Source of the DNA: Thermoanaerobaculum aquaticum
GTDB taxonomy: Bacteria > Acidobacteriota > UBA4820
Length of the DNA: 33,923 bases
NCBI GenBank assembly: GCA_020722885.1
Contig: DYJZ01000011.1
Coordinates: forward strand, 1-33,923
Direction of reading: 5' to 3'
Shown here: piece by piece, positions 9,600-33,868 of the stretch
Layout: every line of letters begins with the position of its first letter
Numbering within the stretch: position 1 is the stretch's first letter
Translations under genes and position numbers: made by a program
Notes under the pieces: generated by a model
The model's database searches: none
What the model saw: only the letters and a program-made list of their open reading frames with translations
Told to the model about the DNA's origin: nothing

Positions 9600-12500
9600 A
9601 TGATATCCGCGCCGCTGTGTCCCTGTGTGGAAGAATTTGTTTCAATGCTTAAGTTTCTGTTTATTCTGTATTTCAAATTTATGTTGCTTTCCGGCAATGC
9701 ACCGAATGTTTGTTGATACTCAAGGACGAGTTTGTCGCTCAAATATTTGCTGAACCCGAGTTGTGGGTCGCCTCTTTCTGAAGTTCCCATTCCAATTGTG
9801 TCAAATTTCATTTTCTTTGAAACCGAATTAAAAAGTGGCGCGGCTTCATAATTGAATGCAATAACCGCTGCTGCTCCTCCCCACTTTGCGTTTTCATCCG
9901 GGTTTAGATTTTGTAAGGTTCTTCCAAAAAGGATAAGAGATAAGATTTCTCCCTGTTCAAGCGGAGGGGTTGAAGAAAGAGTAAGAGTTGGTTTCTCAAC
10001 ATTACCCTGAAGCCTGATTACTACTATGTGGCCAGAAATTTCTTTTTCTGCATGGATGTCAAGCAGCGGAAGAAGATCCTTTCCTGAAGAGAAATAAAAA
10101 GAAGAATTTTTTAAATCAAACTTGTTTCCTGAAAGGAAAAACCTTCCTTCATCAACAGACATTTTTCCTTCAGGCTGAATTCCTTCTTTTGTGAAATTTA
10201 TGAGAACATCTCCTGAAATTTGTGCCAGGAGGTCTTTTCTAACAAGCCACAATTTTTTTCTTGCTCCGATTTTCAATCTGCCTCTCAACTTTCTAAAAAA
10301 CTCTCTTATCATTGAATTTTGTTCTTTTGGAAGTGGTTTACCTATAAAAACAATGCTTTCTGGAAGGCTTTGAGCGAAAGATTCTTTCAGCTGGATTCTT
10401 CCCTTAAGAATGTTTATAGAACCTTCTATATGTGGTTCATTAAAGTTACCGAGTAAAGAAATTTCTGCATCTAAGACACCTGAAAAAAGACTTTTGTATG
10501 CTACTGAAAGATCTTGAGCAAGTAGTTTTATGTCAAGATATGCATTGTCATAAGAAATGTTAATAGTTCCGCTTAAATTTAAATCACCCTCTTTAGATGT
10601 GGTTAAATAACCTTTTGTTATAATTTTATCTTTTTCAAAACTGGCTTCTAACATTCCAATAAATTTTGTTTCACTTTCAGGAATTTCATAAACAAAGTTT
10701 CTCAAAAGAAGGTTTCCAGAAAATTGTGGTTTTTTTAGTTCTCCTTTGATGGAAAGGGATGCGTCAAACCTTCCAGAAAGTGCGTTGGGGATGTTAAGAA
10801 AAGGAATTAGAACAATTGAAAAATTATCCATATTGATTTGTGCATCAATTTTTGAATCTTCATCTGTTTTTTCGATTGAACCCTCTAATAAGAATTTTGA
10901 GTTTCCGCTCTCTAATTGAAAATTTTTCAAAGATATTAAATTTTTTGAGGCTTCAATGGTTGCCTTTTTTGTAAGGTAGAGACGCCGCTTTTCCATTTCA
11001 AAAATAAGAGATGCCAGAAAAACTGAAAGATTTTTCTTATCTTTGTCAAAACTAAAATCTCCTCTTGCCGATATTTTGTTTCTGTCATATTTTGTGGCAA
11101 GCTCAAATGTGCCTTTTTCTCCCGCCTTTTTTATAGAAGAGGTAAAACGGGTAAAGGTATTCCCTGAAATTGAAAGAAAATCGGATTCTACTGATAAATC
11201 AAGATTGATGTCTCCATCTTTTAAAATTACATTTCCTCTCCCTTTCAGGCTAAAGAATTCTCCATTTCCAATTTTTAACTCATCAGAGAAGAAACTGCCA
11301 GAAAAATTTATTGAAGAAAAATCTCCTTTGAAGGAGAAGTCTCCTGTTGAAATTTCTCCGTCGAGAGAAGAATCAAGCTTATTTAAATCTAACTTTTCGA
11401 TAAAGGCTTTCCCACTGTAGAAACCATTTTGGGCAAGTTCACCCTTTATTCTTGCCTTTCCAAAAGAGAAAGCCACATCAGTTTCAGGCAAAAGGAGTTT
11501 TCCTGATCCAAAGATTTTTGCTTCTGAATTTATTGGACCAATTTCAATTTTTTCAAAATTAAAATAAACATCTTTTAGCAGAAAATTGACATATTCTGTT
11601 TTTTTAAAATCAAAAAACATATTTCCCGATAAAAGTAGCGGGACTTCAATTCCCCACGAGCCTGTATCAACTTTTTCAGCTAATACGGATAGTTCTTGCA
11701 ATCTGGCATCGTAAAAATCTAAATAAACAGAATAATCTCCATTTCTGTCATCCTTTGCGTCCATTGAAATCACTATTCTATTGTTTTCAAAAAGAATTTC
11801 AGCAAGTTTGAAGTTGAACATTCCTGATGAAAATTTAAGAGGATCTGGAAGAGGAACATCAATTCCCAGAATGTTCAAAATTTTCAACGGATATGTTTCT
11901 GAAGTCTTAAATCTTATATCGGCTTTACCATTGAAAAAATTGTAATCTACCTCAACATCTCCTTTCCCTGCTTCAGGAGAGATAAAAGAAGAAAAAACAT
12001 TTAATGATTTATTGTCAATGGTTAATTCCGCTTTTCCTGAAGAGACATAGATCCCGAGCACTTTGCTTTCTTTATAATCTCCTTTAAGTTTTGCATATAA
12101 GATCTTGTTTTTATAATTGTAAGAGTATTCTCCATCAAGGCTGGCGTTAATTTCCAGTTTATCAGATTTAATTTCGTTTATTGAAAGGGTATAAAAAAAT
12201 GGGGAGGAGGAAATGAAAACCCTTCCGGTTAAAACATTATTTTTTATTTTGCCTTCCGATTTTATTGAAAATCTGCCGTAAGTTTCCTCGTCAAAGTTTC
12301 CCTTGATTCTTAGTTTTTCCCCTGAAAAATAAAATTCAGCATCACAACGAATTTTTAAATCGGGGAACTCAGTGAAACCTTTTAAATCCTTCAGGTTAAG
12401 AAGAAAGCTTTCGAGTTTGCCTTCAATATTTGCATCACCTTTTTTTCTTTCATAAGAAATGATTATTTTTCCGAAGCTATCGCCGTAGTTTAATTCTCCT

Positions 12501-16059: not shown

Positions 16060-16172
16060 AATTTTTACCTCCTTAAAAATTGGCGCAAGCGCCTTTAATA
16101 CATTAGAGGATTTTACTTTAACAGAAGAGAAATAGCAAATTGAATTAAAAAAAATGTAATTTTGTGTTAAAT

Positions 16173-16178
16173 TATAAT
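16173..16178 (+). promoter_or_regulatory. -10 element of the TPR/cNMP-def-fmt-rsmB operon
   Basis: A perfect TATAAT lies 13 bases before the ATG at 16192, followed by a GGAGG ribosome site at 16182-16186. No good -35 is found at 16-18 bases. Transcripts would have almost no leader. The motif sits in a palindromic AATTATAATT, so the other strand could also be read. Confidence 0.45.
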
Positions 16179-16191
16179 TGTGGAGGTTTAA

Positions 16192-17004
16192 ATGGCATTT
16201 TTTTTTAGAAAAGAAGAAAACTACCTGACGCTTATTCAAAAAGGAGATTTCAAAAAGGCAATAAAAGTAATTTTTACGAAACTTAAAGATTTTCCAGGTG
16301 ACCTTACTCTAAAATTAAAACTTGCTGAATGTTATGAGGGACTTAAAGACACCGAAAACGCCGTCAGAGTTTATCTTGATTCTGCAGACGAATTTATAAA
16401 AACTGGAGAGAAGGAAAAAGCGTTTGCGTTATTGAAAAAGGCTCAAAAGATAGATCCTGATAATGAAGAAGTTAATATGAAACTAAATGCTCTTGAAACA
16501 AAAAAAGAGGTTGAAAGTTTTTCTTTCGACATTGAAGTTGAAAAAGGTTCGGAAAGTAAACTGACTTTAAAGCAGCAGGAAATCAAAGAGGTTCTTAAGA
16601 CTATTTTTCCAGTAGGAGAAAACGCTATTTCAAAAATTGCCGAAGCTTTTGAACCAATCTCTTTGCAGGACGGAGAGACGCTTATAAAAGAGGGAGAGGA
16701 AGGGAATTCTCTTTTTGTTGTTATTGAAGGGGAATTGAAGGTTTTCTCAAAAGATTTCGGGGAAGAGCCGATTCAAGTCCTAAATAAAGGAGAAGTGGCT
16801 GGAGAAGTATCTTTTTTAAAGGGTGTTCCGAGAACAGCCACTCTTGTATCTGAAGGAGAAACGAAAGTTGGAGAGCTCAAGGGCGAAAAGGCAAAGGATG
16901 TTTTGACTCCGTTTCCAGAGCTGATGAAAATTCTTGAAGAGATACTCGAAAAAAGGGTATATTTACTGATATCAAAAATGAAGGATGAAAAATTATGGCG
17001 ATAA
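16192..17004 (+). CDS. TPR and cyclic-nucleotide-binding-domain protein
   Basis: This 270-residue cytoplasmic protein has two parts. Residues ~10-105 form tetratricopeptide-like helices ('GDFKKAIKVIFTKLKDFPGD', 'KLAECYEGLKDTENAVRVYL', 'EKAFALLKKAQKIDPDNEEV'). Residues ~135-255 form a cNMP-binding domain with 'IKEGEEGNSLFVVIEGELKV' and a phosphate-binding-cassette-like 'GEVSFLKGVPRTATL' that keeps the Glu and Arg used for cyclic nucleotide binding. There is no helix-turn-helix or kinase, so it is not a CRP-type regulator. It may be a scaffold whose contacts respond to a cyclic nucleotide. It opens the def-fmt-rsmB operon and overlaps def by 10 bases. Function in translation maturation is not established. 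Confidence 0.85.
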   Translation: MAFFFRKEENYLTLIQKGDFKKAIKVIFTKLKDFPGDLTLKLKLAECYEGLKDTENAVRVYLDSADEFIKTGEKEKAFALLKKAQKIDPDNEEVNMKLNALETKKEVESFSFDIEVEKGSESKLTLKQQEIKEVLKTIFPVGENAISKIAEAFEPISLQDGETLIKEGEEGNSLFVVIEGELKVFSKDFGEEPIQVLNKGEVAGEVSFLKGVPRTATLVSEGETKVGELKGEKAKDVLTPFPELMKILEEILEKRVYLLISKMKDEKLWR

Positions 17005-17528
17005 GAGAAATTGTGCTTTATCCATCAGAAGTATTGAGGGAAAAAGCGAAAGAAGTCGAAGTATTTGATGATGAACTTCAAAAACTTCTTGACGATATGG
17101 TCGAAACAATGAGGCATGCGAAAGGCGCAGGGCTTGCTGGAAATCAGGTTGGAGTTCCATTAAGGGTTATTGTCGTTGATTTTGGTGCTTTAGAGGGAAA
17201 AGAGGACATAAAATTCTTTATAAACCCGGAAATTGTTTCAGAGGAGGGTGAGCGTAAAGACACCGAAGGCTGTCTCTCATTCCCGCAAATTTTTGTTGAG
17301 GTGAAAAGACCCAAAAAGATAAAAGTAAGAGCACTCGATAGAGAGGGAAAACCTTTTGAAATAGTAGGGGAAGATTTCCTTTCAAAAGCCTTAAGTCACG
17401 AGATAGATCACCTTAACGGGGTTTTGATGATTGACCATCTTTCTCCCCTGAAGAGGGAATTAACGAAAAAAAGAATAAAAAAAATGATAAAGGAAGGGCA
17501 ATGGGACGATCCTTATCCCCAAAAATAG
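16995..17528 (+). CDS. def: peptide deformylase
   Basis: This 177-residue metalloenzyme removes the formyl group from N-terminal formylmethionine of new proteins. All three family motifs are present: 'GAGLAGNQ' (residues 44-51), 'EGCLS' with metal ligand Cys93 (91-95), and 'HEIDH' with ligands His135 and His139. The sequence 'MAIREIVLYPSEVLREKAKEV' is a standard N-terminus, so the start at 16995, inside the end of the preceding gene, is sound. It is translationally coupled to fmt, whose start overlaps the last 28 bases. The def-fmt order is widely conserved. Confidence 0.97.
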   Translation: MAIREIVLYPSEVLREKAKEVEVFDDELQKLLDDMVETMRHAKGAGLAGNQVGVPLRVIVVDFGALEGKEDIKFFINPEIVSEEGERKDTEGCLSFPQIFVEVKRPKKIKVRALDREGKPFEIVGEDFLSKALSHEIDHLNGVLMIDHLSPLKRELTKKRIKKMIKEGQWDDPYPQK

Positions 17529-20541: not shown

Positions 20542-20570
20542 GATTGCTTATTTTAAAAACGGAGGCTGAA

Positions 20571-21284
20571 ATGGTTAGTGGCTATTTTAAAAAAGAAAAA
20601 GGTTTTACATTGCTTGAGGTTCTTATTGTTCTTGTTATCCTGTCGATAATTGCGATGATAGCTACAATCAATGTTAGCAGTGCTCTTAAAAGAAGCAGGC
20701 TCGAAGCGGCAGGGAACCAGGTTCAAAGCTTTGTTGAAAGTGCTTCTATTTATGCAAGAGAAAAGTCAAGAGGAGTTTTTGTCTGGTTACACAATGCTCC
20801 GGCTCCAGGTGGGGGAGGAGGCAACTGGTGGTATTGCTACCTTATTGAAGATACTAACAGAAATGATACTTTAGATTATCAAATTATCAATCCCAATGCT
20901 GTTCCTCCGGGGGCAGGAACCGCGGCTGACGGGGATAACTATATTATGTCAGAAAAAGTAGGTATTGAAGGAGGGGTAGCATTGCCCTCTGACATTGTTA
21001 TTGCTAACACGAATCAGGCAGATCCAACTTCCTGGGGAGGCAGGCATACCTGGCCCGTTCCCAATGCTTTTCCAGACGATTATCTTCTTCTATGTGATCC
21101 GAGGGCTCTGGCTTTCAATCCAAATAGCGGGACACAGATTATGCAACCTTCCATAATTTCTCTTACCCATATAGAAATGCTGGATGATACAGGAAATCCT
21201 GGAGGTTCACTTCATCCCAATTTTAGATTTGACTTAACCGTTTCCCCGCTCTGGCACACAAAACTTGACAAGGTTTTATATTAG
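20571..21284 (+). CDS. FimT/GspH-like type IV minor pseudopilin
   Basis: This 237-residue prepilin-like protein has a 10-residue charged leader, a peptidase site 'KEKG|FTLLEVLIV' with Gly11 before cleavage and Glu at +5, and a hydrophobic helix to about residue 35. The C-terminal part resembles GspH/FimT pseudopilins ('ARALAFNPNSGTQ' type region, short acidic loop 'DTNRNDTLD'). Such proteins prime pilus or pseudopilus assembly at the inner membrane. The ATG at 20571 is preferred over an upstream in-frame TTG because GGAGG lies 6 bases before it. It heads the operon of four prepilin-like genes plus pilY1; the next gene begins 13 bases after its TAG stop. Confidence 0.85.
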   Translation: MVSGYFKKEKGFTLLEVLIVLVILSIIAMIATINVSSALKRSRLEAAGNQVQSFVESASIYAREKSRGVFVWLHNAPAPGGGGGNWWYCYLIEDTNRNDTLDYQIINPNAVPPGAGTAADGDNYIMSEKVGIEGGVALPSDIVIANTNQADPTSWGGRHTWPVPNAFPDDYLLLCDPRALAFNPNSGTQIMQPSIISLTHIEMLDDTGNPGGSLHPNFRFDLTVSPLWHTKLDKVLY

Positions 21285-21297
21285 GAGGAAGTTTGCT

Positions 21298-21864
21298 ATG
21301 GAAGAGAAGAGAAAATTTATTAAACTGGTAAATATGGTTCTAAAAGTATTTAAGAGCAATTTAGAGAAAGAAAAAGGAAGCAGCCTCGTCGAGATCCTCT
21401 TTGCAGTTGCGATATTGTCAATTTTGATGATAGGAATACTTCAAATGTTTTCCTATGCATTCGTAATTAACCAGAGGTCATCTCAAAAAACTTTTCAGGC
21501 TTATAAATGCCAGCAGGTTGCTGAACTTATAAGGCTTGACAGACAACTGGAAATACAATGGGAAGTTGTTCCCAATAATGGAGTTGTTTTTGCTGATAAC
21601 ACAATCTATGCCTTACCCTATGTAGCTTCAGACCCAAACTGGGATTATTGGGGTCCTGGTGGTGCCAATGTGATAGAAGAGCCAGGTGGGCAGTACAGAA
21701 TATTTGTCAGGGTGAACCAGCCAGCCGGAACATCTGTGTGGGATGTGAGAATAGCGGCTGTTTCTGCAAAAGAGTATCTTGAAAAGGGATCACCGGCTAA
21801 TCCTTGGGAAGGTGCCGGAATCGCATTAAGGAGGGTTGAATATGTTACAAGAATACCGCAGTAA
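21298..21864 (+). CDS. pilV: PilV-like type IV minor pilin
   Basis: This 188-residue protein has a class-III prepilin signal 'KEKG|SSLVEILFAVAILSIL': Gly27 before cleavage, Ser at +1 and Glu at +5, then one hydrophobic helix. The leader of 27 residues is long for a type IVa pilin. The ATG at 21298 has AGGAGG 8 bases upstream, so the long leader appears genuine. By order (after FimT/GspH, before PilW) and the 'SLVEILFAVAILS' type of N-terminus it corresponds to PilV. The globular part is not diagnostic. It overlaps the pilW-like gene by 23 bases, so coupling is likely. Confidence 0.8.
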   Translation: MEEKRKFIKLVNMVLKVFKSNLEKEKGSSLVEILFAVAILSILMIGILQMFSYAFVINQRSSQKTFQAYKCQQVAELIRLDRQLEIQWEVVPNNGVVFADNTIYALPYVASDPNWDYWGPGGANVIEEPGGQYRIFVRVNQPAGTSVWDVRIAAVSAKEYLEKGSPANPWEGAGIALRRVEYVTRIPQ

Positions 21865-23086
21865 AAAAGAAAAAGGATTTACTCTCATAGAAGTTTCAGT
21901 TTCACTTTTAATTCTCGTCATTGTTCTTGCTCTTTCTTTGTCGCTTCTTTTTTCTATGCAGGGATTTGCGAGAAGGCAGAGGCAGTTTGCAGAGCCGAGG
22001 CAAGGTGCCAGAAGGGCAATGGATTATATAAGCAGTTATTTGAGAGCTGCTACTGATGGAAACTATAATCGTGAAAATCCCAATGCCATTGTTGTCTGGT
22101 ATAAAATTGGAGAAACTCCCACTCAGGCAACTTACAACAATGTTATAGATCCCAATCTTGCAGAACCAGGAACTGATCTTATTACATTTGGAAGGAGTGA
22201 AGGTGGAGGAAACATAATGATTTCTCAATGGTCAGGGGGGGGTACCTTTTCTAACGCATCAAGTATAAGAGTTCATTTTAGAGAAGGTTGCCCCGATATG
22301 ATTACGGGAGGGAATAATCAACTCAATATGCTTAAATTTATGCAAGTGACCGGCTGCACAGGAGATCCGAGTTGTCATACGGGTAATTTCCCCTGTCCTT
22401 CCTGTACCAGTAAAGTTCTGACTGTTGTTGATCCACAGGGAGATTACGCCTTTTTGCAGATAACGGGATACCAGCGCAGCGATTGTAATCCTTCTCAACC
22501 CTTTTAGGAAATACGCGTTACCGCAAATCCTGGTCAATCACAGGTCAACCCTCCAGGAGATAGGGGAGTATCCTGCGCAACAGGTGTTACAAGTACCACT
22601 GCCCCCTCCTGCAAAATCGGGGAAGGGGTCAATTATATGGCTTTCAGAATAAAGAGGGACAACAACGGTATCCCTCAACTTCAGCAGAAGGATGGGCTCT
22701 TCAATCCAAACACCGACAATGGAGGAGCACAGGACACTTTTGTTCCCCTTCTTGACAATATAGAGGATTTGCAGATCGCATATATTTACAATGACGGTCA
22801 GATTTTTAACGATGGAATACAGAATCTGATCGATTTAGGCTATAGTGGTGGGGTGCCTTCTCAGGCTAACACTCAGGCACCTGTTCCACCACAAGATATA
22901 ACAAATGTCATTGGAATAAGGGTTTCAGTAACTGCTCTTGCAAACACACCAGTTTCTTTTACCGAAAGAGCAAAATTTTTCAGACCCGCTTCTGAAGACA
23001 GAGCCGAAGATCAAAACAGGGATAGGTTTTATCACTATCGTCTTACAAATAGTGTAATGCTTAGAAACAGGAACCTTGGAGGTTGA
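21842..23086 (+). pseudogene. pilW: PilW-like minor pilin gene interrupted by one in-frame TAG
   Basis: The first part (21842-22504, 221 codons) starts at an ATG with AAGGAGG upstream and encodes a prepilin: 'KEKG|FTLIEVSVSLLILVI', Gly12 before cleavage, Glu at +5. A TAG at 22505-22507 interrupts it. The same frame then stays open from 22508 to the TGA at 23084. It includes 'NIEDLQIAYIYNDGQ', 'VIGIRVSVTALAN' and the terminal 'NSVMLRNRNL', typical of PilW-type C-termini. Only one base separates the two parts from a single 414-codon gene. An ATG at 22637 with AAGGGG upstream could re-start translation of the distal part. Possible readings are a nonsense mutation, a sequencing error, a split gene with re-initiation, or stop read-through. 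TAG ends other genes here, so the code itself is standard. Confidence 0.8.
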
Positions 23087-23087
23087 T

Positions 23088-23759
23088 ATGAAAACAAATA
23101 ATGAAAAGGGAAGTGCTCTTATAACGGTAATTCTTGTTGTTCTCGTTCTTACTATGGTTGGGATAGCCTCACTCTTCTTTATGACCACAGAGGAGAGAAT
23201 AACAAATACAGCAAGACTCGAGAAAATTGCTTTTTATGCTGCTGAAATAGGCTTGAGAAGGGCGGAGACATCAATTCGTAGTCAATATAGCGTCAATCCT
23301 AATTGTCTTACAAATATGCTATCTTACAATCCAGGGGTGCAAAGCGAGTGGACAGTGCTTCAAGTTCCAGGTTGTGCGGCAACAACTTCAATGCACGATA
23401 CGGCTGTCGTTTTTACCGACCCAACGGATCTTGAAGTGCAGGCTCAAAGGCAGGATCCTGCTTTAGCTTTAATTGATCCAGATAATTCTGCTATCCCCCC
23501 GGCAGAAATGAGAGGATTTCTTGTGGATAATCAGGGATATGTAAGCACTTACAATCTTTACTTAAGAAATGACGATGATGAGTCGAGCGACACTATAGAT
23601 GGAAACGGTATAGTAAATGCTATTTCTGTTGGGCTTGTGGTGACACCCACAGGACAGGTGATTAGAAAGGTTCTTGAAGAAGGAATTGCCCCTGTTGGAG
23701 CTGGAGGCGCGGGCTTCCTGTTTCAAAAGGGAAGAAATATGGGCGGAACAGGCGCATAA
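23088..23759 (+). CDS. pilX: PilX-like type IV minor pilin
   Basis: This 223-residue protein has a very short leader and site 'NNEKG|SALITVILVVLVLTMVG' followed by 'TTEERITNTARLEKIAFYAAEIGLRRAE'. That is the PilX N-terminal pattern: no Glu at +5, and a conserved 'A..A.E.GL..A' helix after the membrane segment. PilX is part of the minor pilin complex that primes pilus assembly together with PilV, PilW and PilY1. The ATG at 23088 has GGAGG 5 bases upstream and begins 1 base after the pilW-frame stop. pilY1 begins 14 bases after its own stop. Confidence 0.85.
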   Translation: MKTNNEKGSALITVILVVLVLTMVGIASLFFMTTEERITNTARLEKIAFYAAEIGLRRAETSIRSQYSVNPNCLTNMLSYNPGVQSEWTVLQVPGCAATTSMHDTAVVFTDPTDLEVQAQRQDPALALIDPDNSAIPPAEMRGFLVDNQGYVSTYNLYLRNDDDESSDTIDGNGIVNAISVGLVVTPTGQVIRKVLEEGIAPVGAGGAGFLFQKGRNMGGTGA

Positions 23760-23773
23760 GAAGGGAGGCGGCA

Positions 23774-26700
23774 ATGAAAAGAGTATTGTTTTCTGTTGTT
23801 TGTTTGTTTGTTTTTCTGGCTTCAGTTTACGGTGAGGAGGGATATGACCCTCTAATTCAAATAACCCACCAGTTTGCAAAACCAAATATGCTGATTGTCC
23901 TTGATGTTTCAGGTTCTATGGCGTGGAATATGTCAGGTTCAAATCACAATGTTGGTGTGGATTCCACTGGCTTTCCTTACTGGTCGCTTAGTAGAACCAC
24001 TGGCTCTCCCTGTCAAAGATATAAATTTCTTGCGACACTGGTTAATAAGGACCCGAGCAGAATGGTTATATTGAAAAACGCCCTCGGGAATTCTGTTTCA
24101 TATTACGAGATGAATTTTAACGCAGTTTCAGATGCTACCTGGATGAGTATCCCGTTAAATTCTGGATGGCAGTGGAAAGGTAAAGATGGAAGTGGTAGGC
24201 CTCAATGGCTTTACTGTTCAAATTCATCATCATCTCCAGCTTCAAGACCATTTACGGTAACAGAAAGTTGCCCGGGGTTGACTACTCATCCTCCCAAGGA
24301 CCTGATAGGTCAGACAAGGAACAGCGTTAACTGGGCACTTGTCATATACTCTGGTGACAGAGGGAATTGTAGTTCGGCATCCATTAAAACACAGTTTGAC
24401 CTTTCAGAAATGGGAGATGTTACAGTACTTGAAAATCTTCTTAAGCTTAAATCAGCTGGAGGGCTTGGGACAGGTGGTGCTACACCAACAAGGGGAGCAA
24501 TGACTTTTGCAAAGACCTATCTTAGAGCAGCCCTCGCTGGCTCAACGATTAACGATTTTGATGAGCCAAACACGAATGACAAGAATACATGGACTTTTAC
24601 TCAGGATTCAAAGTTTTTTGCCTGCGACAGGGCTTACGGAGCTATTCTTGTAACTGACGGACAATCCAACAATTGTAATCCAAGCAATAATGAATGGAGC
24701 AACTGCCCGACAAACTGGTCTTCATATCCTCCTGGAGCTATAAATCAATTGTATTTTGACCCGGCTTATTCTTTAACATACGGTGGGCTAGTTTATAAAC
24801 CAATAATCAAAACGTGGGTAATAGGTGTTAGTCCGGAGGTTAGCCGCTGTGAAATCAATTTTAATGCCTATATGGGAAGAACAGATGCAAACGCACCGGC
24901 AGGTGATGCAGGTTTTGATACTTCAAAAGACCTTGATAGACTTCCTCCAATGAATACTTATGTAGAAGGGGAAAATCAGCTCCACCCCGGCAGAATCCAC
25001 TATACAACTTTAATTTCTGGCCATGAGCAGGACAATTTTAATCCAGGTCTGGATTACGGGTATTTTGCTAGTGACGCAGAGGCCCTTGCGGATGCTTTTG
25101 CCGCAATTGTTGCTGGAGTTGCAACGGGAGATTACACAACTTCTTCACCAGTTGCAAGCCCTCTGTCAACTTCTACAAGCAATCAGGCTTTTCTTGCAAG
25201 CGCAGAATTTCCTTCCTGGAATGGGCATCTTTATTGTTTTGACACGACAGGTGATGTCGGGGTTCTTGTTTATGATGCAGGCGAAAAATTGGCGGCTCAG
25301 CCTTCAAGTGCAAGAAGAATCTACACCTGGGACACTTCAGGTCAGCTAATAGAAGTTACTGCGGACAACCTCAACCTTTTGAAGATCATTGCCACAAGTT
25401 TTAATCCTACTTTTGATTCTTCCACCCTGACGACACAGGTTATAGATTTTATTAGAGGAAACGATGGCAATGGCATTTCGAGGGAATGGAAGCTCGGTGG
25501 AATAATAAATTCAACTCCTACCATTGTCAACGCTCCAGAAATGTATAAGCAGAATACAGTGGATGTTAGTCACAATCAGTTTACCGCTTTATATTCCTCG
25601 AGGAAACCATTAATGTATGTAGGAGCGGACGACGGAATGCTTCACTGTTTCCTTATAACGGACGAATCTGAGGATGGAACAAAACCCTATTTTGGTGAAG
25701 GATATGAACTCTTTGCTATTCTTCCTCCTAATCTCCTTTCCAAACAGCCGACGCTATATTCCAATTTTGTTAACAACGGAATTGTAACCGGACAGGAAAA
25801 ACAGCCCAAAAACCATATTTATGGTATTGCCAACTCTCCGAGATACGGTGATGTTTATCTGGGTAATGGAGTGTGGAAGACAGTTCTTTTCCTTACTGAA
25901 GGACCCGGTGGGGAGATGCTCGCTGCTCTTGACATTACAGATCCATTGGGAAATCTTTTGAAGAGTCCACCTGAACCCCCCACATCCATCCTGTGGTACC
26001 ACACGCCTTTAACCTGTCCTTATTTGAGAAAGACATGGAGCATTCCAGCCCTCGCTTCTGTTAACAGTCAGGATTTAATTGGAATTATTGGAAGCGGTTA
26101 TGATGAGGCAAGTTCTACATCTCCAAAAGTTTTTGTTTTTGACGCAAAGAATGGAGCGTTACTGGACACGGAAAGCATTTCTGCGGCTGCAGGAACAACA
26201 TGGGTCAAAAATCAGTCTTTTGCTGATTCTCTTTTACTTCAGACGCAAATAGGTAAATACAGTCCTGACAACCTTGCAGATATTGGAATACAGGCTGATC
26301 TCCACGGCAGGTTGTGGTTTTACGATGTTACAAGCAAAACCATTCTTGGAAATATTGATGCCTCGGCAAAAGCAGGGTGTTCTCAGCCAATATACTATCC
26401 TCCAGCAGCCTCTGGTTACTATATTTCAGATTCCAAGAATTATGATATTTATGTTTTTGCCAGCGGGACACCTTATGAAAAGGATGTGGATGTTACAGGA
26501 CCCAATGTCGGGTTGACTTCAGGTTCTCCAAAACCATTTATGCCATCAATATATGTTGCAATTCAAAATCCCTGGCAAAAAAATCCACCCGCTTCTACAA
26601 AGGTAATCCAGATTCCGATTCAAGACCTGACATGGAAAGACAATGATGGAGTCGTCCATAATTTCGGGAGAAGAACACAGGTTACGAGTCCACCAATGAT

Positions 26701-27028
26701 GATTGTGCCGGAAACTTCAGCAGGGTCATCAAAACCCACTGCTCTTTTCTCCCTCTATGACCCTGACACTACTGACTGTGCAGGAACGAGTTATGTAATT
26801 GTTTTAACCATAGACATAAGTGAGACAGGAAATGCGACTGTAAGCCACAGCGGATACAGTGCAGGTTCAGGAGCGGCATCAGGATTTGCAATCATTGGAA
26901 GAAGCGTGGTAGTTGCAAAATCTGGAATCGGGGAAGGGAAAAGAGCTTCTGTGTCAAAGGTTCCAGGTGTGACACCAACCTGGAACACGGGTCAACCAGC
27001 ACCTGTAATGTGGCGTGAACTTCAATAA
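23774..27028 (+). CDS. pilY1: PilY1-like type IV pilus tip adhesin (vWA + beta-propeller)
   Basis: This 1084-residue exported protein has a signal peptide ('VLFSVVCLFVFLASVYG', to ~20). A von Willebrand A-type domain follows with a full metal site: Asp44-x-Ser46-x-Ser48 in 'LIVLDVSGSM', the 'TPTRGAM' Thr near 237-239, and Asp295 in 'AILVTDGQSNNC'. The C-terminal PilY beta-propeller begins near residue 600 with the family signature 'MYVGADDGMLHCF' and includes 'ANSPRYGDVYLGNGVWKTVLF' and 'AALDITDP'. PilY1 proteins sit at the pilus tip or cell surface and act in pilus extension, adhesion and surface sensing. Several Cys residues in the vWA part suggest disulfides. It is the last gene of the minor-pilin operon and is followed by a strong terminator. 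Confidence 0.92.
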   Translation: MKRVLFSVVCLFVFLASVYGEEGYDPLIQITHQFAKPNMLIVLDVSGSMAWNMSGSNHNVGVDSTGFPYWSLSRTTGSPCQRYKFLATLVNKDPSRMVILKNALGNSVSYYEMNFNAVSDATWMSIPLNSGWQWKGKDGSGRPQWLYCSNSSSSPASRPFTVTESCPGLTTHPPKDLIGQTRNSVNWALVIYSGDRGNCSSASIKTQFDLSEMGDVTVLENLLKLKSAGGLGTGGATPTRGAMTFAKTYLRAALAGSTINDFDEPNTNDKNTWTFTQDSKFFACDRAYGAILVTDGQSNNCNPSNNEWSNCPTNWSSYPPGAINQLYFDPAYSLTYGGLVYKPIIKTWVIGVSPEVSRCEINFNAYMGRTDANAPAGDAGFDTSKDLDRLPPMNTYVEGENQLHPGRIHYTTLISGHEQDNFNPGLDYGYFASDAEALADAFAAIVAGVATGDYTTSSPVASPLSTSTSNQAFLASAEFPSWNGHLYCFDTTGDVGVLVYDAGEKLAAQPSSARRIYTWDTSGQLIEVTADNLNLLKIIATSFNPTFDSSTLTTQVIDFIRGNDGNGISREWKLGGIINSTPTIVNAPEMYKQNTVDVSHNQFTALYSSRKPLMYVGADDGMLHCFLITDESEDGTKPYFGEGYELFAILPPNLLSKQPTLYSNFVNNGIVTGQEKQPKNHIYGIANSPRYGDVYLGNGVWKTVLFLTEGPGGEMLAALDITDPLGNLLKSPPEPPTSILWYHTPLTCPYLRKTWSIPALASVNSQDLIGIIGSGYDEASSTSPKVFVFDAKNGALLDTESISAAAGTTWVKNQSFADSLLLQTQIGKYSPDNLADIGIQADLHGRLWFYDVTSKTILGNIDASAKAGCSQPIYYPPAASGYYISDSKNYDIYVFASGTPYEKDVDVTGPNVGLTSGSPKPFMPSIYVAIQNPWQKNPPASTKVIQIPIQDLTWKDNDGVVHNFGRRTQVTSPPMMIVPETSAGSSKPTALFSLYDPDTTDCAGTSYVIVLTIDISETGNATVSHSGYSAGSGAASGFAIIGRSVVVAKSGIGEGKRASVSKVPGVTPTWNTGQPAPVMWRELQ

Positions 27029-27091: not shown

Positions 27092-30000
27092 ATGAAAAAT
27101 TTGATTAAAATTTGGGTTTTTCTTATTTTGTTTTTTACTCTTTCGTATGGGGTTTTTGGCAACCCGGTCATAAGCAATGTGCAGATTTCGAGGGTTTTTT
27201 CTGACACCGCACTCATAACCTGGGAAACCGATGTTGCTGCTACAAGCAGGGTAACTTATGGAAAAACCACTCCACCCAGCATCAATGAAGACATAAGCGA
27301 TATGACTTTAGAACATTCAGTATTGTTGACCGGTCTTGATTCCTGTTCAACTTACTATTTCGAGGTTACATCGAATGATGGCCAGGGCTCAACAACGGAC
27401 AACAACGGTGGCTCTTACTACACATTTAATACAGGAAATTCTGAACTAACTGCAACCTATTCGGCAAGTGATGTTCCACTTACAATTCCAATGAATGGTA
27501 CAGCCTCCTCAGTTATTTATGTTGGTGATAATATGACAATTGAAGATGTTGATGTTACCATAGGAGAACTCCTTAAAGATTTTGTCTGGACAATCAGAGT
27601 TTATCTGATTGCTCCGGATAACACAAAAATTCTTCTGGCAAAGGATCAGGGAGAGGATATTAGCACTGAGAACCCCAACTTTGAGGGACTTACCTTTGAT
27701 GATGATGCATTTTATTATATGCAGGATGCCACCATTCATCCCCCCTACACGGGAAGGTTTAAACCACTTGTGAGCCTCAGTCATTTCTACGGAAAAAACG
27801 CCCAGGGTAACTGGACACTGGAAATAACAAATATTGATACTTCAAGAACAGCGACATTGAATTCCTGGAGTATTAAATTTCATTATGGATATGAGTACTG
27901 TTCTGCCCATTCCAGAATAGAATCATATCAAGTAACAGATGCCTGTACGGGAACAGGAAATGGAAATAACGACGGAGTAATCGATGCTGGAGAGTCAATC
28001 CAATTGGGGATAACGCTATATAATGATGGAAATGTAAACCTCACCTCAGTATCTGGAACTCTTACTACATCAACATCAGGAGTGACTGTTGTAAACGGAA
28101 GTTCCAGTTTCCCGAATATAGCAAAAAGGGCACAGGGCACTTCTAATTCAAATTTCAGTTTTAATGTTGATATAAGCAAGGTGTGCTCAGACACGATAAG
28201 CTTTAACCTTCATATTACTTCAAGTGAAAAGCCTTCAGGATGGGATGTTCCATTAACTCTGAAAATAGGTAATGAGCCTTCTGAGGATATAGTTTTGATA
28301 GATGAAGACCTTGCTTTCGGGATGCCAACAACCTGGACTATCATTGATGGTGGGGATAATGATAGTGCTCCCGAGGCAGTGTGGACCTGGACAGACCAGA
28401 ACCCCTGTTCGGGAGAATTATATACAACTCGTGATATTTCTCCTCCTGTAAGTGAGCCATTTATGATAGTTGACAGTGATTGTGCTGGAGAGTATGCGAC
28501 TCAGGATGAACAACTAATATTACCACAACTTGATTTTTCTAATGCAGGTTCGGCTTATCTTGAATTTGATCACCATTTTTATTCTAACGATCAACAGGAG
28601 GTGTGCTATGTTGATATAAAATCCTCTCTAACAAGTAATGAATGGTTGAACTTGTGGAACCTGAGTTTACCCCCATTAGAGTCAGCAGGAGGACACATTG
28701 TCATAAATATTACTGATTATGCAGCGGGGGCAAATAATGTCCAGATAAGATTTCGTTATGTCGACCCCGCCTGGGGTTGGTGGTGGGTAGTAGACAACAT
28801 CAAAGTTCATTACACGCCTTCTTACTACTGCAATATGAACAGGTGTTGCCCTACTATGACAACACCGGTTATTACAAATATTACCGATGATAACCTTTGT
28901 AGCCAGACAGGAATAACAATAACCTTTACCTCTTCTTCTCCTGCAACAAGGCACGATCTGTATGTTGATGGCACTCTTGCACAAAGCAATGTTACAAGCC
29001 CGATAAGTTACAATCCTGGGGATAAAAATAGTCACAGCTACAAAATAGGAGCAATAAATTATTATGAAGATTGCTACATAGAATCCTCACCTTCAACTTT
29101 TACAGACGAAGATAGAACTCCCGGAACTCCTTCTGCCCCGACCGTTACAGATGTAACTCCCTGTTCAACAAATGGGGTTCAGATAAGCTGGGGAGCTGTT
29201 TTGCAGGCGACCTATTACGACCTTCTTGTAGATGATACAATTCTGGTAAATAATGTAACCAGCCCACATACCTATGAGCCAGGTGACAATAACTCTCACA
29301 ATTACAAAATAAGAGGGAGAAATGATGATTGCACAGGGGGATGGTCTGTTGCAACATCTGGAACCGATTTAGATCAAACACCAGCAACTCCATCAACTGC
29401 TCCCACCGTTACCGATAAAGATGCCTGCCAGACAAATGGTGTAAATATAACCTGGTCTTCTGTAAATGGAGCGAATGCTTACGATTTAAGAGTTGATGGA
29501 ACAACTGTAATTGAAAATGTAACTTCTCCATACACCTACACTTCAGGTGACAACAACCAGCACTCATATGAAATAAGGGGAAAATATGTAAATAGTAGCC
29601 CATCTTACACCTGTTACGGCGGGTGGTCTCCTTCACAGAACGGAACAGATATAAACGATACGCCTGGGGCTCCATCGATTACAGCTATAACAGACAACGA
29701 TGCCTGTGCGACAAGCGGGGTTACGATAACTTTTACCGCAGGAAATGGAGCAACTTCCCACGATTTATACAAAGATGGAAGCATTGCGGTAAGCAATTTT
29801 ACTTCAGGCTCAACATATCAGCCAGCAGATAACGCTTCACACAACTATGTAATAAGAGCAAAGAAAAACACCTGCTACAATGATTCAACAGGAGTTGCTG
29901 GAACTGATGTAAACGATACTCCAGGACAGCCTGTAATAACTGGCATTGTGGATGTCAGTGCATGTGCTACAAGCGGGATTCAAATTAATTACACTTCAGG

Positions 30001-32956
30001 TTCAGGAGCGACATCACACGATTTGTACAGAGATGGGTCAATTGTTGTAACCAATTATGTTTCAGGTGCTACATATCAGCCAGGAGACAACAATTCACAC
30101 AATTATGTTATAAGGGCGAAGAAAAACACCTGTTACATTGATTCGACACAGGTTGCTGGAACTGATGGTAACGACACACCCGGAACGCCCACAATTTCTT
30201 CGATAACAGATTTAAATAATTGTGCTTCTTCTGGTGTATCAATAACGTGGGGAGCTGTAAGTGGAGCAACTGCATATGACTTATATGTTGACGAATCTAT
30301 TTTGATTAGCAATGTGACGAGTCCATACACTTATGTTCCTTCAGATGGAAACAATCATTATTACCAAGTAAGGGGGAAGAATTCCTTCTGTATAGGTGCT
30401 TGGTCGGCTTCTGCCATGCCTTCATATACAAATGAAGGCGGAAGCGGGAATCGTACCTCACTTATAACTGTAACCTCAGATATTGTAAATGGGAATGCGA
30501 ACCAACTTGTAGATGGGAACAATACAAGCAGTGGTATATATTTTAATCCTGTTTCAGTTGTGGGGAGATATGTTAGTTTTGATTTTGGGAGTGGAGCGTC
30601 AAGAGTAATCACAGAAGCGAAATATTATCAGGGCACTTCCCATACGCACGGGACATGGAAATGGCAGGGTTCGAATGATGGTAGTAGTTGGACAGATATA
30701 GGAGGGGAATTCACACTTGGAGGGAGCACGATACAAACGATAACAGTATTATCTGGTAATGCGAATGAGTATAGGTATTATCGAATACTTGGTGTTTCAG
30801 GAACTGCAAGTGCAGCACCTTGGATTTACGAATTTGAATTTAAAATTAGCGGCTTAGCAGTTGGTAGGGATATTAATTACACCCCATCTGCGATAACTAT
30901 TGGAAATATAGTTGATGAGGATCCATGTCAAACGAGTGGTATTAGAATATATTTCACAGGTGGAGAAGGAGCGGATAATTTTGTGCTTGTGGATAACTCT
31001 GTGGAAGTTGATCAAAATTATACTAGTGGAAAGTTGTACAATCCTGGAGACAATGCTTCGCATACATATGTGATAAGGGCGAAGAAAAACACCTGTTACA
31101 ATGATTCAACAGGAGTTGCTGGAACTGATGTAAACGATACTCCAGGACAGCCTGTAATAACTGGCATTGTGGATGTCAGTGCATGTGCTACAAGCGGGAT
31201 TCAAATTAATTACACTTCAGGTTCAGGAGCGACATCACACGATTTGTACAGAGATGGGTCAATTGTTGTAACCAATTATGTTTCAGGTGCTACATATCAG
31301 CCAGGAGACAACAATTCACACAATTATGTTATAAGGGCGAAGAAAAACACCTGTTACATTGATTCGACACAGGTTGCTGGAACTGATGGTAACGACACAC
31401 CCGGAACGCCCACAATTTCTTCGATAACAGATTTAAATAATTGTGCTTCTTCTGGTGTATCAATAACGTGGGGAGCTGTAAGTGGAGCAACTGCATATGA
31501 CTTATATGTTGACGAATCTATTTTGATTAGCAATGTGACGAGTCCATACACTTATGTTCCTTCAGATGGAAACAATCATTATTACCAAGTAAGGGGGAAG
31601 AATTCCTTCTGTATAGGTGCTTGGTCGGCTTCTGCCATGCCTTCATATACAAATGAAGGCGGAAGCGGGAATCGTACCTCACTTATAACTGTAACCTCAG
31701 ATATTGTAAATGGGAATGCGAACCAACTTGTAGATGGGAACAATACAAGCAGTGGTATATATTTTAATCCTGTTTCAGTTGTGGGGAGATATGTTAGTTT
31801 TGATTTTGGGAGTGGAGCGTCAAGAGTAATCACAGAAGCGAAATATTATCAGGGCACTTCCCATACGCACGGGACATGGAAATGGCAGGGTTCGAATGAT
31901 GGTAGTAGTTGGACAGATATAGGAGGGGAATTCACACTTGGAGGGAGCACGATACAAACGATAACAGTATTATCTGGTAATGCGAATGAGTATAGGTATT
32001 ATCGAATACTTGGTGTTTCAGGAACTGCAAGTGCAGCACCTTGGATTTACGAATTTGAATTTAAAATTAGCGGCTTAGCAGTTGGTAGGGATATTAATTA
32101 CACCCCATCTGCGATAACTATTGGAAATATAGTTGATGAGGATCCATGTCAAACGAGTGGTATTAGAATATATTTCACAGGTGGAGAAGGAGCGGATAAT
32201 TTTGTGCTTGTGGATAACTCTGTGGAAGTTGATCAAAATTATACTAGTGGAAAGTTGTACAATCCTGGAGACAATGCTTCGCATACATATGTGATAAGGG
32301 CGAAGAAAAACACCTGTTACACCGATTCTGAAGGATATGCCGGAACCGACATTAACAACACTCCTTCTCCAATTTCCCTTACTGCTTCTGATAACGGTAG
32401 CGGGTGCGGAATTCTGGTTTCATTCAGCGGTGGGTCAGGGGCAACGCAATTTGACCTTTATGTTGATGGAGTGTTAAAAGCAACCAGTATCACTTCAGGA
32501 TATGTCTATGAACCTGCAGACAGTAATTCTCATAACTATGTGGTAAGGGGAATCAACGGTTCATGCTATACAGATTCGAACACATCATCAGCTTCTGACC
32601 CGGGGTGCGGTGTCCCGCCTGGAGAAGTTGGTAACGGAGCAAATTTCACATGGACTGCAAATCAGACATCACAAACTTTCAGCTGGAACAGTGATCCCGT
32701 TGCTGATGGATACAGGGTTTACAGGGGAGTTAAAGCAGAGCTTGGTAACCTTTGCGATGCCAGTACCGATTTTTGCATGAGGTACGAAGGGACGAATACA
32801 AATCTGGATGTCACATCTGATTCCCCTGCGACAATTGATTCAGCTAACAGAGTAGTTTATTATCTAATAGTTGCCTACAACGGAGCAGGGGAAGGAACAT
32901 CTGGAAATGCTACCTGCGGAACAAGACAGATTAACTCAACAGGAAACTGCCCCTAA
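27092..32956 (+). CDS. giant secreted modular protein (Fn3-like, P-domain, discoidin domains)
   Basis: This 1954-residue protein has a signal peptide (to ~23). The order of modules is as follows. An Fn3-like domain lies at ~25-115 ('ALITWETDVAATSRVTYG'). A proprotein-convertase-type P domain is at ~125-270 ('DVDVTIGE...DFVWTIRVYLIAPD', 'NAQGNWTLEITN'). A domain with 'NNDGVIDAGESIQLGITLYNDG' is at ~290-390, and a jelly-roll-like domain 'LEFDHHFYSN' at ~400-575. About ten Fn3-like repeats of ~88 residues follow from ~590. Each has a Cys near the start (as in 'ACATSGI') and one near the end (as in 'KKNTCYIDS'), suggesting a disulfide. Two identical discoidin (F5/8 type C)-like domains lie at ~1120-1256 and ~1527-1663. 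A last Fn3 domain ends the protein. No catalytic site or sorting tail was recognised. AAGGAGGG precedes the ATG. Location after pilY1 suggests a surface adhesin or binding protein. Confidence 0.9.
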   Translation: MKNLIKIWVFLILFFTLSYGVFGNPVISNVQISRVFSDTALITWETDVAATSRVTYGKTTPPSINEDISDMTLEHSVLLTGLDSCSTYYFEVTSNDGQGSTTDNNGGSYYTFNTGNSELTATYSASDVPLTIPMNGTASSVIYVGDNMTIEDVDVTIGELLKDFVWTIRVYLIAPDNTKILLAKDQGEDISTENPNFEGLTFDDDAFYYMQDATIHPPYTGRFKPLVSLSHFYGKNAQGNWTLEITNIDTSRTATLNSWSIKFHYGYEYCSAHSRIESYQVTDACTGTGNGNNDGVIDAGESIQLGITLYNDGNVNLTSVSGTLTTSTSGVTVVNGSSSFPNIAKRAQGTSNSNFSFNVDISKVCSDTISFNLHITSSEKPSGWDVPLTLKIGNEPSEDIVLIDEDLAFGMPTTWTIIDGGDNDSAPEAVWTWTDQNPCSGELYTTRDISPPVSEPFMIVDSDCAGEYATQDEQLILPQLDFSNAGSAYLEFDHHFYSNDQQEVCYVDIKSSLTSNEWLNLWNLSLPPLESAGGHIVINITDYAAGANNVQIRFRYVDPAWGWWWVVDNIKVHYTPSYYCNMNRCCPTMTTPVITNITDDNLCSQTGITITFTSSSPATRHDLYVDGTLAQSNVTSPISYNPGDKNSHSYKIGAINYYEDCYIESSPSTFTDEDRTPGTPSAPTVTDVTPCSTNGVQISWGAVLQATYYDLLVDDTILVNNVTSPHTYEPGDNNSHNYKIRGRNDDCTGGWSVATSGTDLDQTPATPSTAPTVTDKDACQTNGVNITWSSVNGANAYDLRVDGTTVIENVTSPYTYTSGDNNQHSYEIRGKYVNSSPSYTCYGGWSPSQNGTDINDTPGAPSITAITDNDACATSGVTITFTAGNGATSHDLYKDGSIAVSNFTSGSTYQPADNASHNYVIRAKKNTCYNDSTGVAGTDVNDTPGQPVITGIVDVSACATSGIQINYTSGSGATSHDLYRDGSIVVTNYVSGATYQPGDNNSHNYVIRAKKNTCYIDSTQVAGTDGNDTPGTPTISSITDLNNCASSGVSITWGAVSGATAYDLYVDESILISNVTSPYTYVPSDGNNHYYQVRGKNSFCIGAWSASAMPSYTNEGGSGNRTSLITVTSDIVNGNANQLVDGNNTSSGIYFNPVSVVGRYVSFDFGSGASRVITEAKYYQGTSHTHGTWKWQGSNDGSSWTDIGGEFTLGGSTIQTITVLSGNANEYRYYRILGVSGTASAAPWIYEFEFKISGLAVGRDINYTPSAITIGNIVDEDPCQTSGIRIYFTGGEGADNFVLVDNSVEVDQNYTSGKLYNPGDNASHTYVIRAKKNTCYNDSTGVAGTDVNDTPGQPVITGIVDVSACATSGIQINYTSGSGATSHDLYRDGSIVVTNYVSGATYQPGDNNSHNYVIRAKKNTCYIDSTQVAGTDGNDTPGTPTISSITDLNNCASSGVSITWGAVSGATAYDLYVDESILISNVTSPYTYVPSDGNNHYYQVRGKNSFCIGAWSASAMPSYTNEGGSGNRTSLITVTSDIVNGNANQLVDGNNTSSGIYFNPVSVVGRYVSFDFGSGASRVITEAKYYQGTSHTHGTWKWQGSNDGSSWTDIGGEFTLGGSTIQTITVLSGNANEYRYYRILGVSGTASAAPWIYEFEFKISGLAVGRDINYTPSAITIGNIVDEDPCQTSGIRIYFTGGEGADNFVLVDNSVEVDQNYTSGKLYNPGDNASHTYVIRAKKNTCYTDSEGYAGTDINNTPSPISLTASDNGSGCGILVSFSGGSGATQFDLYVDGVLKATSITSGYVYEPADSNSHNYVVRGINGSCYTDSNTSSASDPGCGVPPGEVGNGANFTWTANQTSQTFSWNSDPVADGYRVYRGVKAELGNLCDASTDFCMRYEGTNTNLDVTSDSPATIDSANRVVYYLIVAYNGAGEGTSGNATCGTRQINSTGNCP
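29876..32321 (+). repeat. 1221-bp in-frame tandem duplication inside the giant protein gene
   Basis: Bases 29876-31100 recur at 31097-32321 with a period of 1221 bp (407 codons). I found no difference in the stretches compared, and the encoded residues are identical. Each unit carries two Fn3-like repeats, one discoidin-like domain and a third Fn3-like repeat. Similarity breaks off at 29875 (C versus T) on the left and at 32322 on the right. Confidence 0.93.
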
Positions 32957-33691: not shown

Positions 33692-33720
33692 ATTTTAAAA
33701 AAATAAAATATTTTTGTCAA
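33692..33720 (-). promoter_or_regulatory. sigma-70-type promoter of the zinc-ribbon gene
   Basis: On the minus strand, a perfect -35 TTGACA (33720-33715) is followed after exactly 17 bases by -10 TAAAAT (33697-33692). The ATG is at 33633. The -35 begins 5 bases after the end of the 92-bp dispersed repeat. Confidence 0.75.
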
Positions 33721-33725
33721 ATTAA

Positions 33726-33817
33726 TGTAGAAGTCCACAATATTTGAGACTTTTTGGGAAGGAAAGACAGCAAGACAAATTCATCTGGGACCTCCATACT
33801 TTTGCACCGCTACCTTA
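33726..33817 (-). repeat. 92-bp dispersed repeat, right copy (inverted)
   Basis: The reverse complement of this segment matches 44-135 at about 90 percent over 92 bases without gaps. It lies directly upstream of the promoter of the minus-strand zinc-ribbon gene, so both copies point the same way relative to the gene they precede. Confidence 0.85.
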
Positions 33818-33821
33818 ACCT

Positions 33822-33868
33822 CTTATTGCGAGTGCTCCTTCAAAGCATAATCTTGCGAATCAATCTCC
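33822..33868 (+). repeat. GTCATTGCGAG-type palindromic repeat, diverged copy
   Basis: CTTATTGCGAGTGCTCCTTC and its continuation to CAATCTCC align with the copy at 14022-14069 at roughly 80-85 percent over 47 bases. It directly abuts the 92-bp repeat. Confidence 0.7.

Follow-up and report, generated by a model that had tools for sequence, protein, structure and literature searches.

The closest known kind of protein to the one analyzed here is the Periscope Proteins, whose defining feature is variation in repeat number (Whelan et al., 2021, PMC8201768; reviewed in PMC9704523). Like Periscope Proteins, our 1954-aa protein appears to be of surface type and, in this assembly, is encoded by long tandem blocks of highly identical DNA that code for what are probably Ig-like beta-sandwich domains; intragenic recombination, their proposed mechanism, is likewise the one proposed here. 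A second point of comparison is the classic tandem duplication, which arises when short direct repeats undergo exchange or slippage and which shows homologous ends and a hybrid junction, as this locus does. A first search of the literature on duplication paired with Fn3 returned nothing. The explanation that we consider likely is that 407 codons of the protein's stalk, a unit containing a CBM32-like domain, were truly duplicated in tandem and in frame through the pairing of two paralogous repeats, a and d.

The window, i.e., the whole 33,923-nt stretch of Thermoanaerobaculum aquaticum DNA that was analyzed, corresponds to contig C7 in an assembly of 107 contigs and 1.90 Mb, and all genes, domains and sites located in it below are on its forward (+) strand. 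The gene (27092-32956) encodes a hydrophobic, signal-peptide-like N-terminus (recognized by eye), a proprotein-convertase P-domain (aa 167-263, 27590-27880; Pfam P_proprotein, E=3e-10), a series of ~86-aa repeats that follow the P-domain and were recognized by a repeat profile built in the present analysis, and a conserved C-terminal part; a cell anchor was not identified. Directly upstream (20544-27028) lie three N-methylation pilin-like genes and PilW-like, PilX-like and PilY1-like genes. This order is kept in sister genomes, namely in G002 (same genus) and, as far as read, in G003 (same family), where PilW, PilX and PilY1 neighbors are retained beside the corresponding gene on contig C93. 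Because the order of the pilin/PilY1 cluster is kept in both, the compared genes are orthologous by position. The 1954-aa product is probably a secreted, pilus-associated protein, for which we infer a surface location. Rfam and tRNA searches of the window gave zero matches. As a separate observation, an interspersed repeat of ~60-140 bp with the core TTTGAGACTTTTTGGGAAGGAAAG lies in opposite orientation at the contig's two ends (34-135 and 33717-33866); repeats with this core occur in about 40 places in the genome, many of them contig ends, and have no Rfam match.

When the window was compared with itself, positions 29876-31100 and 31097-32321 were found to agree over 1225 bp without a mismatch, the longest exact run at an offset of 1221; nowhere else in the window is a direct repeat of at least 30 bp exact, and the match is far beyond chance. 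The run is bounded by mismatches at 29875 (C vs. T) and 31101. With a period of 1221 bp, or 407 codons, and both copies within the single uninterrupted ORF 27092-32956, the in-frame tandem duplication described in an earlier, sequence-only reading is confirmed in the assembled sequence. Unit copy 1 (29876-31096) comprises the end of repeat a, repeats b and c, the CBM32-like domain, and most of repeat d, and unit copy 2 (31097-32317) is the same in the present assembly, with the identity extending to 32321. No second location of the unit was found across the assembly, where a weaker, 77% paralogous stretch lies just upstream in the same gene; a search of plasmid DNA gave no match, and the junction sequence was not found among viral contigs.

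The ends of the unit lie in paralogous repeats. The left parental exchange site, AAGAAAAACACCTGCTACA (29861-29879), belongs to repeat a, and the right one, AAGAAAAACACCTGTTACA (32303-32321), to repeat d, while the hybrid junction between the two copies (31082-31100) again reads AAGAAAAACACCTGTTACA, its left side being as at 32303 and its right side as at 29876, with the switch within TACA (31097-31100). On re-examination of these sites, the coordinates given previously and the shared AAGAAAAACACCTG-TACA proved correct. A junction at which the end of a unit is followed by its start is tautological for any tandem duplication; the informative evidence is the homology of the parental sites. These are alike at 18 of 19 bases in the core and at 75 of 101 (74%) around it, in the same repeat phase, and their longest uninterrupted identity is 14 bp, or 19 bp even with C misread as T. 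When position pairs within the gene were counted with one of the units omitted (9.8 million pairs), those with 18 of 19 bases matching made up a fraction of 1.9e-6, and all are in frame. The hybrid d/a repeat at the junction (30884-31150) is still complete by the repeat profile and is predicted to be all-beta (AlphaFold2, mean pLDDT 88); against the PDB it gave Ig/Fn3-like matches that were weak and non-significant (best E 0.09). The repeats missed the cut-off of Pfam fn3 (PF00041), with aa 27-100 alone reaching a weak 14.2 bits vs. 25. Since they fall below this cut-off, the hybrid is all-beta, and its non-significant PDB matches are of this kind, we refer to the repeats as Ig/Fn3-like.

From these sites, recombination guided by the repeats is well supported as the origin of the duplication. 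Repeats a and d, which are ~2.4 kb apart in the present array, would have been 1.2 kb apart before the event, and would have paired in register through the 19-bp, near-identical linker, whereupon unequal exchange or replication misalignment would have produced a fusion whose left part comes from d and whose right part comes from a. Since the high-similarity pairings in the gene are all in frame, the product would retain both reading frame and domain phase, and the event would have doubled a phage-tail-type CBM32-like head and lengthened the stalk. Uninterrupted homology of 14 bp is short for RecA-type recombination. Of the unequal crossing-over between paralogous Fn3 repeats proposed in the sequence-only reading, the in-register, in-frame exchange is supported, as it explains the length, the ends and the hybrid junction, but crossing-over in the strict sense is doubtful, and strand slippage or template switching at replication would serve as well. 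The present array contains five copies of the 19-bp site, including one in repeat b (30119-30137) and its duplicate (31340-31358), which are possible sites of further exchanges.

How the two copies are to be read depends on the assembly. Among the 87 contig ends read, shared terminal sequence was exactly 55 bp and never longer (pairs C15/C3, C13/C19, C36/C75, C24/C12, and C85/C29), a pattern that marks the assembly as one made from a de Bruijn graph with k=55. By default, metaSPAdes goes up to k=55, and this program was presumably the assembler of the present genome. metaSPAdes collapses bulges and strain-level differences, then resolves repeats with strain paths (PMC8021871, which reviews metagenome assembly). 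That the copies are perfectly identical had been taken to mean that the duplication is either very recent or strongly homogenized. However, in a k=55 graph the 1225-bp repeat is one path from which both copies are read, so that their identity may have been made by the assembler and provides no date for the event; given this type of assembly, identical copies were rejected as proof of recency. In general, a "perfect" kilobase duplication in a short-read metagenome assembly says little about age, since the assembler may equalize the copies. Elsewhere in the present genome, contigs end within further repeat genes of this family (ends of C3, C15, and C86), a point that weighs against the favored duplication.

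The same graph bears on whether there are two units at all. The exact repeat, at 1225 bp, exceeds the usual insert length of short-read libraries, so that no read pair need span a unit, and the second copy may be a traversal of a loop by the assembler, both of which count against the duplication that we favor. Under an artefact, only one unit would exist, and a chimeric or erroneous junction would have looped the k=55 graph, the assembler walking the loop once too often. The repeat exceeds k by over twentyfold, the exact identity of the copies is what a walked loop would yield, and chimeric self-loops are a described class of artefact in SPAdes RNA assemblies (PMC6736328). However, the join requires reads in which the left part of d is fused to the right part of a, and the exact sequence common to the parental sites is too short for an assembler to join them at k of at least 21, which implies that junction-spanning sequence existed in the original reads. 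Moreover, a chimera exactly in register and in frame would be expected only if it, too, were driven by homology, and an orthologue carries a block duplication whose copies differ and so were separately assembled. On this evidence, an artefact is unlikely.

A real duplication through repeats a and d could nonetheless be larger than it appears. Because a k=55 assembly does not settle copy number, the "two" units may mean two, more than two, or a mixture. A real array of at least three units, or a population in which individual cells carry one, two or more, could be displayed as two; it would have the same origin and would be a sub-case of the favored explanation. Further exchanges could take place at the five copies of the 19-bp site, and similar surface proteins as a rule vary in repeat number (PMC8201768; PMC6868369); we give this version a minor but appreciable chance. 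Variation between cells, as suggested in the sequence-only reading, is not supported by an assembly of this type.

Orthologous genes indicate that growth of this kind is not confined to the present genome. The orthologue of G003, which represents a sister genus (contig C93; locus L020, 4100-6700), contains its own in-frame block duplication of 1293 bp, or 431 codons, that comprises five repeats. Its block copies are 92.3% identical, with 66 of the 98 substitutions at third codon positions, and in a tree its repeats pair across the block (7-12, 9-14, 10-15, and 11-16; repeats 8 and 13 are also near each other). In G002, the unit is absent and two adjacent repeats, 8 and 9, are near-identical, and a G001 contig likewise has near-identical single repeats. 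Together, the block duplication in G003 and the near-identical repeats in G001 and G002 show that growth by in-frame duplication recurs in the gene family, involving a different unit on each occasion. In addition, long stretches of ~70-95% identity were observed in G003 (contig C31, locus L028) between 10609-11800 and 16081-17270, which are offset by 5472 bp and belong to two neighboring ORFs.

These comparisons also bear on the age of the duplication, which could be old, its copies kept alike by gene conversion or, having diverged, equalized when the assembler collapsed small differences. Such a collapse by metaSPAdes can erase real differences (PMC8021871), and in the repeat tree the family repeats cluster by gene more than expected by chance. 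Against an old duplication, the block is absent from the same-genus orthologue (G002), and the block in G003 has drifted to 92%, so that homogenization there is not strong. We regard an old duplication as quite improbable.

The cargo of the unit was overlooked in the sequence-only reading. Each unit contains one domain of 141 aa (30446-30868 in copy 1 and 31667-32089 in copy 2) that resembles the CBM32/F5-8C (discoidin-like) type. Its score against PF00754 (F5/8 type C) is 23.6 bits (E=6e-5), below the curated cut-off of 28.2, and for this reason we call it CBM32-like and not a member of PF00754. The domain was predicted by AlphaFold2 with a mean pLDDT of 92.7 to adopt a discoidin-like beta-sandwich fold, and the model matches CBM32 structures with a TM of about 0.6-0.7; on this predicted fold, the possibility that this part is an ordinary Fn3 repeat was rejected. 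The domain probably binds sugar.

None of the other orthologues or loci that were read contained the domain, and in a survey of 297 genomes of the phylum a full match was found in the present genome alone, with weak partial matches in G009 and G092. Most relatives of the domain are tail proteins of phages and prophages. Relatives were found at 27 IMG/VR loci and, among roseophages, in four records as virion or hypothetical proteins. The best BFVD match was a Roseobacter phage virion protein (E=7.5e-13), and the virion protein of Roseobacter phage RD-1410Ws-07 is 40% identical to the domain over 95% of the query. Relatives occur in five places on genome contigs, four of which (L050, L051, L053, and L054) either adjoin phage tail genes or are part of proteins of tail type. 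The closest of these is in a DUF2793 tail-type protein (L050, 5080-6795) that adjoins a gene-transfer-agent TIM-barrel tail gene. The invariant motif WKWQGSND of the domain is partly a search bias, being itself one of the scan patterns. A tree of the domain did not resolve the donor. The simplest reading of these sequences is that the domain was probably captured from a phage or prophage and subsequently duplicated. A bolder proposal, which we offer as speculation with little expectation that it holds in full, is that a phage receptor-binding-type CBM32 domain was captured into a pilus-linked stalk and that the dose of this head varies between cells through in-frame exchanges at the 19-bp linkers. 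If true, the protein would be Periscope-like, but with a variable unit that served as a binding head in addition to being a spacer.

Measured against known systems, the locus differs from Periscope Proteins in that no strain-to-strain variation in repeat number was seen in the one assembly analyzed, in that repeats beyond the block have diverged and a CBM32-like domain forms part of what was duplicated, and in that the search for features of the protein revealed no cell-wall anchor. Periscope repeats are rod-forming folded domains of over 50 residues with high DNA identity; here the 407-codon units are identical in the assembly, possibly as a product of k=55, and the repeat is predicted to be all-beta. 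With CBM32 / F5/8 type C (PF00754) the domain shares the predicted fold, but its sequence is sub-cut-off and it falls in a phage-tail-type subgroup. The virion protein of phage RD-1410Ws-07 and similar phage and GTA tail proteins contain the same domain, there in a tail or virion and here in a bacterial Ig/Fn3-like array. Unlike in classic tandem duplications, the ends here lie in domain repeats of a single gene that have diverged from one another, so that frame and domain phase are kept. A long repeat gene in an uncultured lineage can thus grow by whole domain blocks with the frame unbroken, and a block of this kind can raise the number of a binding domain that was probably acquired laterally. 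Next to these systems the mechanism is ordinary, and it is the cargo domain that is the interesting part.
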